Positions 57,206-59,172 of a stretch of 64,000 nucleotides of DNA are shown piece after piece; position 1 is the stretch's first letter; every line of letters begins with the position of its first letter. Location: the IMG/VR virus record IMGVR_UViG_3300034954_001540, positions 16,865-80,864 of that record; one strand, 5' to 3'. The position numbers and the translations under genes were made by a program. A model generated the notes under the pieces. It ran no database searches. It saw only the letters and a list, made by a program, of their open reading frames with translations, and was not told the origin of the DNA. The stretch is from a virus.

Positions 57206-58567
57206 ATGTTTAACGCTGAAGCACTCCAAGAGAAGTGGAACCCCATTCTTGAGCACAATGAGCTCGATCCTATTAAGGATACCTACAGAAAGGCGGTTAC
57301 CTCTGTCCTCCTGGAAAACCAAGAAAAATTCCTCAAGGAAGAGCGCGGTCTGGTAACAGAAGCTGCTCCTACTAACTCCTTGGGAGGAACAGGATACTCT
57401 GGTAGCAGCACTGCTACAGGTCCTGTTGCAGGTTTCGACCCTGTGCTGATCTCTCTGATCAGACGCTCCATGCCTAAGCTTATTGCTTATGACATCTGCG
57501 GTGTGCAGCCTATGACTGGTCCTACTGGACTGATCTTCGCAATGCGCTCCACTAAGGGCACTAACAGAGACATCGCTAACAGCGGCGTTGAGACCTTCTT
57601 CAACGAAGTTGACACTGAGCATTCTTCTGAGAATAGCTCCAACGGTCTTGCCTCTAACACTCAGACTGGTAGCAATCCTGGTCTGCTTGCTGACGCTGCT
57701 GGTAACTACACCATCGGTGGTCAAGGTATGACTACTGCTCAGGCAGAAGCCTTGGGCGATGGCGCTACTAACCACTTCAACGAGATGGGATTCTCGATTG
57801 AAAAGGTTACAGTTACTGCGAAGTCAAGAGCCCTCAAAGCTGAATACAGCTTGGAGCTTGCTCAAGACCTGAAGGCAGTGCATGGTTTGGACGCTGAGTC
57901 TGAGCTTGCAAACATCCTCAGCACTGAAGTGCTGGCTGAAATCAACCGTGAGGTTGTCAGAACTGTTTACAAGATCGCTAGACCTGGTGCACAAAACAAC
58001 ACTGCAACTGCAGGCGTGTTTGACCTCGACGTTGACTCCAACGGTCGCTGGTCGGTTGAGAAATTCAAAGGTCTTCTCTTCCAAATCGAAAGAGACATGA
58101 ATGCTATCGGGCATGAAACTCGTCGCGGGAAGGGCAACATCCTCATCTGCTCTGCTGATGTGGCATCTGCTCTGTCCATGGCTGGTGTGCTTGATTACAC
58201 TCCTGCTCTGTCTGGTAACAGCAACTTGCTGCCCGACGACAACAGCAGCACTCTTGCTGGTACACTTAACGGTCGTATTAAGGTCTACGTCGATCCTTAC
58301 TCTGCCAACGTTTCCGATGCTCACTTCTATGTGGCTGGTTACAAAGGTAGCAGTGCTTATGACGCAGGTCTCTTCTACTGCCCTTATGTGCCTCTCCAGA
58401 TGGTTCGTGCTGTGGGTCCTGACACCTTCCAACCTAAAATTGGATTCAAGACTCGTTACGGAATGGTCGCTAACCCATTCGCTGAGGGTCTTACACAAGG
58501 TCAAGGCGCACTTACAGCTAACGCTAACCGTTACTACAGACGTGTTAAGGTTACTAACCTTATGTGA
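57206..58567 (+). CDS. gp23: gp23 major capsid protein
   Basis: Hexameric capsid subunit, 453 residues (T4 521). 'RRSMPKLIAYDICGVQPMTG', 'KSRALKAEYSLELAQDLKAV' and 'FKTRYGMVANPFAEG' are the standard signatures. The propeptide resembles T4 ('KWNPILEHNELDPI', 'LLENQEKFL') and probably ends at Glu52 in 'GLVTE' before 'AAPTN', equivalent to the T4 cleavage in 'FLTE' before 'AEIGG'. A strong terminator follows. No gp24-like vertex gene follows, unlike T4. Confidence 0.97.
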   Translation: MFNAEALQEKWNPILEHNELDPIKDTYRKAVTSVLLENQEKFLKEERGLVTEAAPTNSLGGTGYSGSSTATGPVAGFDPVLISLIRRSMPKLIAYDICGVQPMTGPTGLIFAMRSTKGTNRDIANSGVETFFNEVDTEHSSENSSNGLASNTQTGSNPGLLADAAGNYTIGGQGMTTAQAEALGDGATNHFNEMGFSIEKVTVTAKSRALKAEYSLELAQDLKAVHGLDAESELANILSTEVLAEINREVVRTVYKIARPGAQNNTATAGVFDLDVDSNGRWSVEKFKGLLFQIERDMNAIGHETRRGKGNILICSADVASALSMAGVLDYTPALSGNSNLLPDDNSSTLAGTLNGRIKVYVDPYSANVSDAHFYVAGYKGSSAYDAGLFYCPYVPLQMVRAVGPDTFQPKIGFKTRYGMVANPFAEGLTQGQGALTANANRYYRRVKVTNLM

Positions 58568-58589
58568 TCTATATTTCACATACTTTTTG

Positions 58590-58615
58590 GAGGGGCTTGA
58601 CGCCCCTCTTTTTTT
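58590..58615 (+). terminator. Terminator of gp23
   Basis: GAGGGGC, loop TTGAC, GCCCCTC, then seven T. A perfect 7-bp stem 22 bases after the capsid stop codon. The loop also forms the -35 box of the following promoter. Confidence 0.92.
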
Positions 58616-58625
58616 ATGCCATAAT
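58597..58625 (+). promoter_or_regulatory. Sigma-70 promoter embedded in the gp23 terminator
   Basis: TTGACG (58597-58602), a 17-base spacer and CATAAT (58620-58625), with a TG at 58617-58618 that fits an extended -10. The predicted start is around 58632, the first base of the 5' hairpin of the ncRNA candidate. Confidence 0.6.
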
Positions 58626-58631
58626 ATATTT

Positions 58632-58854
58632 GTTGAGTTGATCGCTCAACACGGGAGTGACCGAATAACCCTGTTGGAATTTGGCGGGGTAAGGTAAATG
58701 ATTAGAGGTGGTGCTCGCTGCTAGGTCCGTCCTAGAGAACCCCAACCAAGGGAATCATTGTTGTTATGCCCAAAATTTCGCACTAGCGATTCCCATAACA
58801 TGAGGGTAAAATGTAATCCCTCCTCCCACACCCACCCCTTGGGTGTATTTTTTT
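58632..58854 (+). ncRNA. Candidate structured non-coding RNA, about 223 nt
   Basis: No convincing coding frame. Visible pairings in order: GTTGAG/CTCAAC at the 5' end (58632-58637 with 58645-58650); a long-range stem TTGG-C-GGGGT (58681-58690) with ACCCC-AA-CCAA (58739-58749), enclosing a hairpin CTAGG/CCTAG (58721-58725 with 58731-58735); GGAATC (58751-58756) with GATTCC (58788-58793), interleaved with TGTTATG (58762-58768) and CATAACA (58794-58800); GAGGG/CCCTC (58802-58806 with 58818-58822); and a terminator hairpin at the end. It has its own promoter and terminator. I cannot assign it to a known RNA family from memory. Confidence 0.6.
58828..58854 (+). terminator. Terminator of the candidate ncRNA
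   Basis: ACACCC, loop ACCCCTT, GGGTGT, then A and seven T. A 6-bp stem with T-tract. Confidence 0.75.
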
Positions 58855-58998
58855 GTCTATGTGTAAAGGCTTTGTAAAAAAGCAACAAATGTATATTACG
58901 ATACCAAAACAATTATAAGTAGTAATAGAATTATGAGAGGTGGAGACATGAAATGAAAGTTTTTTCATACATCATGGAGTCACATATGGAGGTCAGTT

Positions 58999-59172
58999 AT
59001 GCACAACATAACTTCGCGAAATCAACTCGACGAGTGGCGTCATTTTGAAGATACGATCGATGAGATGGACATCGAGAATCAGAAACTTAATGACTACTAC
59101 GAATGTTTAATTGATTGCGATATCCAACACAATACCAGCTGCAAGAGATATTGCAGGAGGATTCTTATGTGA
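58999..59172 (+). CDS. Small Cys-containing protein, 57 residues
   Basis: The ATG at 58999 has GGAGG eight bases upstream. Acidic helix ('DEWRHFEDTIDEMDIENQKL') followed by four cysteines in 'YECLIDCDIQHNTSCKRYC', a Cys-x3-Cys ... Cys-x3-Cys pattern that I believe is common in small cyanophage proteins. A terminator follows its stop by 26 bases, so this is a short transcription unit. Between the ncRNA and this gene (58855-58998) there are only AT-rich bases and very short frames. Function is unknown. Confidence 0.65.
   Translation: MHNITSRNQLDEWRHFEDTIDEMDIENQKLNDYYECLIDCDIQHNTSCKRYCRRILM

Follow-up and report, generated by a model that had tools for sequence, protein, structure and literature searches.

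A manA RNA with its own promoter and terminator behind the major capsid gene of a T4-like cyanophage

The DNA analysed here (the window, 64,000 nucleotides) comes from an 80.9-kb virus record, and the segment of interest lies between the major capsid gene gp23 and a small open reading frame on the same strand (Table 1). The preliminary description called the 223-nt segment 58632–58854 gene-free, and we found no credible gene inside it; only one same-strand open reading frame of at least 30 amino acids is confined to the segment, and it has 31. The downstream open reading frame starts 171 nt behind the CTCCC strand that closes the RNA, with a terminator in between, and is preceded by a conserved non-coding block (which includes ..TTACGATACCAAAACAATTATAAGTAGTAATAG..) that is possibly its promoter.

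Table 1. Features at the manA locus (window positions).
Feature	Position	Strand	Evidence or remark
gp23, major capsid gene, upstream neighbour	57206..58567	+	ORF; PHROG 138, E 8e-171
gp23 terminator; loop with -35 box of manA promoter	58589..58616	+	8-bp stem and T-run
Predicted sigma-70-type promoter TTGACG-17-CATAAT	58597..58625	+	position conserved across relatives
manA RNA (RF01745)	58631..58832	+	121.2 bits, model positions 1-192
First helix, TGTTGAG...CTCAACA	58631..58651	+	sequence; transcription start predicted at 58631-58632
GGGAG, 5' strand of closing long-range helix	58653..58657	+	paired in 38/38 sequences
CTCCC, 3' strand of closing long-range helix	58823..58827	+	paired in 38/38 sequences
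Intrinsic terminator ACACCC..GGGTGT with T-run, directly behind manA	58828..58855	+	stem probability 0.90-0.997
Conserved block before next gene, ..ATAAGTAGTAATAG	58890..58936	+	also in manA-less L141, L142 and L148
Next ORF, 57 aa, function unknown	58999..59172	+	PHROG 665, E 1e-28

The segment is the manA RNA of a T4-like cyanophage. A cmscan search of the whole window against Rfam gave a single match above cut-off, RF01745 (manA), with 121.2 bits against a curated cut-off of 55.2; matches to SorX, the L20 leader and Xist at or near the segment score far under their own cut-offs and were rejected. The conserved blocks GUGACYGAAUAA and GGUGGUGC are present in the alignments. The preliminary description had proposed a new structured RNA, had named manA among the families to be searched and had stated that a match to a known family would make the RNA known; by that measure it is a new member of a known family. 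The stable fold and the promoter and terminator of its own might have spoken for an undescribed family, but the full-length match refutes this and we regard the idea as having practically no chance of being right.

The manA RNA was published by Weinberg et al. in 2010 as an element that probably regulates metabolic genes in cis from their 5' UTRs (PMC2864571); its alignment was revised in Rfam 14 (PMC7779021), where the family carries the type label Cis-reg. The window copy shares with the published RNA the full-length covariance-model match, the helices including the long-range helix, the conserved blocks and the kind of host virus, but differs from it in having its own terminator, in lying behind gp23 and in having no mannose, fructose or photosynthesis gene nearby. 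In the isolated cyanomyovirus S-CREM1, a manA of the same family (100.6 bits) was reported and listed as cis-regulatory from Rfam (PMC9964418); unlike the present analysis, that report left promoter, terminator, copy number and place unanalysed.

The description of the segment as structured and densely paired is borne out. Folded alone, the 223-nt strand has a minimum free energy of -72.1 kcal/mol (z = -2.4), equalled by 3 of 200 shuffles. RNAalifold predicted 33 pairs from 38 diverse manA copies, 18 of them with both sides changed, and the window's own helices contain 19 both-side-changed pairs against a shuffle mean of 12.6, with none of 500 shuffles as high, although this shuffle ignores relatedness among the 38 sequences. 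When shifted by -3, -2, -1, +2 or +3 columns, the structure performed less well by every measure; at +1 the covariation score was similar (0.194 versus 0.180), since MAFFT takes no account of structure and the mapping leaves helices 4, 6 and 7 partly out of register. The closing GGGAG/CUCCC helix is replaced by the compensatory GGGUG/CACCC in P-RSM1 and MED4-213 (A-U to U-A, two of the 38 sequences), and P-HM1 shows it as well; compensatory changes in related phages are what the preliminary description had demanded. The alignment of the 38 copies also shows conserved unpaired bases at an aptamer-like density.

A sigma-70 promoter of its own had been claimed for the segment, and TTGACG-17-CATAAT is present in the sequence. 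With three promoter matches in the region and 3.8 expected, a single match alone is not significant; the relatives argue for it. An exact-pattern scan of IMG/VR returned at least 119 stretches with a manA block, and among the matches listed 103 of the 111 distinct upstream sequences have, at the right distance, a promoter that scores 10/12 or more, a score reached at that distance by 0.18% of base-shuffled upstream sequences. The spacing from the -10 box to the first helix is 5 nt in 77 of these 111 copies. By consensus and conservation, the promoter is positioned to start transcription at the first helix, the 5' end of the RNA. The start had been placed on the first base of a hairpin; hairpin and promoter are there, but the manA match begins at 58631, one base earlier. 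A host sigma-70-type promoter fits early rather than late transcription. We note that at 58589-58625 the TTGAC of the -35 box sits in the hairpin of the gp23 terminator, so that the upstream stop and the manA start are fused. No other such fusion was found within the window, and the arrangement is found in 39 of 108 promoter-bearing manA copies among the matches listed, the window included.

At the other end, the intrinsic terminator claimed earlier is confirmed as a hairpin with T-run. The region holds eight terminator-like sites where 1.8 are expected. The stem directly behind manA forms with near certainty and with no competing upstream pairing in a nested model that does not treat pseudoknots; within that model it is therefore unlike a riboswitch-controlled terminator, and an attenuator at this site was rejected. 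At the orthologous loci L026, L030 and L031, the terminator stem is kept while its loops differ, so the 3' end is defined here and in the orthologues, though not in all copies of the family. Three close relatives have no manA behind gp23 (in L141, gp23 is 98% identical to that of the window). They have a plain terminator there, followed by a similar block, ..TTACGATA(C/T)CAAAAC..ATAAGTA(G/A)TAGTAG, ahead of the next gene, which therefore seems not to need manA. The gp23-based sample of 50 contigs consisted mostly of contigs too short for judging the absence of manA.

The Rfam model gave exactly one match in each of the 63 manA-bearing records searched, the record of the window included. Because manA was the reason for choosing these records, what counts is the absence of a second copy; 17 of them are phage genomes of 172–252 kb described as complete or genomic. 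The single copy lies at unrelated genes: behind gp23 (which some of the records annotate as head vertex or as major head protein) in P-RSM1, MED4-213, P-HM1, P-RSM4, S-SSM5 and metaG-MbCM1; behind pstS in S-SSM4, P-SSM3, P-SSM4 and P-RSM3; behind regA in P-SSM2; before talC in P-TIM40 and P-RSM6; before gp32 in P-HM2; and before tRNA-Gly in S-SSM7. The pair P-HM1 and P-HM2, which have been placed in one species (gp23 87% and gp32 89% identical), is instructive, as P-HM1 carries manA behind gp23 and lacks it before gp32, and P-HM2 the reverse. This would be unexpected for a leader serving its neighbour and expected for an RNA needed once, anywhere. At the pebS-gp32 junction, a promoter-like TATAATAAATAGT is shared by P-HM1 (L288) and P-HM2 (L133), and in P-HM2 manA follows it, as though inserted precisely where transcription begins. 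No match to manA was obtained in five other Synechococcus myophages, and none was found in plasmids. The genome-contig matches listed, mostly chance 15-mer matches, include only L341, L391 and L394 as convincing copies, whether of phage or host origin.

Some copies are bounded by tRNA genes. In L010, L061 and L114, which look like one lineage, the promoter is missing and the last base of a tRNA-Thr gene directly precedes the first of manA, with a gap of 0 nt (in L114, tRNA 1120-1191 and manA 1192-1384); the sequence upstream of manA in L062 is tRNA-like, with no tRNA called there by ARAGORN. On the 3' side, tRNA-Gly begins 4 nt behind CUCCC in S-SSM7, and several contigs have tRNA-Asn or tRNA-Gly 4–18 nt behind manA. 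Processing of the tRNAs would give manA nearly the same ends as promoter and terminator do elsewhere, and this would fit an RNA whose ends matter. Other copies are placed differently: in 50 of 163 distinct copies (a sample enriched for the 3' module described below), an open reading frame begins no more than 60 nt behind manA and no terminator separates the two. Unless it is cleaved off, manA there forms the 5' portion of an mRNA and would act while attached to it.

Many relatives have a further hairpin element, GACCTAAGATGCAACT...AGTSGGGCAGATGGTC, between manA and the following gene, which is absent from the window. A scan for this 3' module found 86 IMG/VR stretches (including L016:3492-3528). 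Of the 80 that were tested, 73 have manA blocks upstream, six have the 3' end of manA on a truncated contig and one is too short, so the module occurs only directly behind manA wherever this can be tested (79/79). The sequences that follow it vary (open reading frames, tRNA-like genes), the module has no match in Rfam, and the copy in L025/L120 shows a G-C to A-U change in the outer stem. It looks like an undescribed, optional part of the manA RNA. Separately, a glutamine-riboswitch-like sequence lies shortly behind manA in L079, L090, P-SSM3 (L129) and P-SSM4 (L128); in L079 it exceeds the Rfam cut-off, and in the other three it was seen as a sequence motif. Small "hypothetical protein" genes have been annotated in or across manA (GU071098 SSSM7_180, AY940168 PSSM4_169.1, GU071101 PHM1_121, GU075905 PHM2_011 and PHM2_012, GU071097 SSSM5_127) and are probably spurious reading frames within the RNA.

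We suggest, with a probability of roughly 0.6, that manA at this locus is a complete small transcription unit and that the family is a single-copy RNA of mobile place, most likely acting in trans. Host-type RNA polymerase would begin at the first base of manA, copy about 220 nt and stop at the terminator directly behind it; the RNA would accumulate and, in free form, bind a host or phage factor from early infection. In these phages manA would then be a single-copy RNA gene that changes its genomic place, and not the control leader of one gene. Trans action is the most likely mode since the copy is single, its place changes and no gene is fixed beside it. Family membership, promoter, terminator, the single copy per record and the change of place are read directly from sequence, whereas the accumulation of a 220-nt RNA, its action in trans and the early timing are inferred. 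As judged from sequence, the stand-alone reading is well supported at this locus and moderately so for the cyanophage family, and it goes against the Rfam label.

That label states the main alternative, a cis-regulatory leader, probably a riboswitch, with the terminator here serving as the expression platform of the next gene. We consider this distinctly less probable. In its favour, the class was published as cis-regulatory, the unpaired bases are conserved as in an aptamer, and the third or so of the copies within 60 nt of an open reading frame do occupy the 5' UTR position of a leader and count against the stand-alone reading. At the present locus, manA does not lie in the 5' UTR of a gene it would regulate, and no expression platform exclusive with the aptamer fold was found, the terminator having a probability near 1 with pseudoknots outside the model. 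A leader is also hard to square with one copy per genome at unrelated genes, with the different sites in P-HM1 and P-HM2, with tRNA genes directly before or behind manA, and with the upstream block that the next gene keeps where manA is missing. The claim that the RNA is independently transcribed and not a leader is thus supported at this locus by the conserved promoter, the non-competing terminator and the manA-less relatives; of the preliminary description as a whole, the structured RNA with promoter and terminator, standing alone here, survives and the new family does not.

A different possibility is that manA is a general 5'-terminal element whose target is the transcript it belongs to or the polymerase making it, for example a put-like antiterminator or a stabiliser of the RNA end, whatever gene follows. 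The put RNA of phage HK022 lies at the very start of its transcript, directly behind the promoter. manA resembles it in this, but its size is much greater, each genome has a single copy whose place varies, and a terminator is kept behind it here. The invariant place at the transcript start, the varied downstream genes and the P-HM2 copy, which occupies the very start point of a promoter that P-HM1 retains in the absence of manA, would suit such an element. We nevertheless think it unlikely, given one copy per genome in changing operons, the conserved terminator that immediately follows manA here and the tRNA junction of L114, where the 5' end of manA is not at a promoter.

Extending the stand-alone reading to cyanophages in general, manA would be a trans-acting single-copy RNA gene of changing place and not a riboswitch, widespread in marine viruses, with ends determined either through a promoter and terminator of its own or through the processing of a tRNA that abuts it, and with the undescribed 3' module GACCUAAGAUGCAACU...GGGCAGAUGGUC in many phages; we give this wider proposal an even chance. 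Term searches in the P-HM2 infection RNA-seq paper (PMC5082946), the comparison of T4-like cyanophage genomes (PMC3037559) and the environmental ncRNA paper (PMC7368042) turned up no mention of this RNA. Since 2010, manA has counted as a riboswitch candidate of the orphan kind and has been investigated as the leader of metabolic genes. Should it be a free RNA gene, its role ought to be sought among host or phage partners and no longer among ligands and the genes downstream, and this could be tested directly in culturable phages such as P-HM1, P-HM2, P-SSM2 and P-SSM4.
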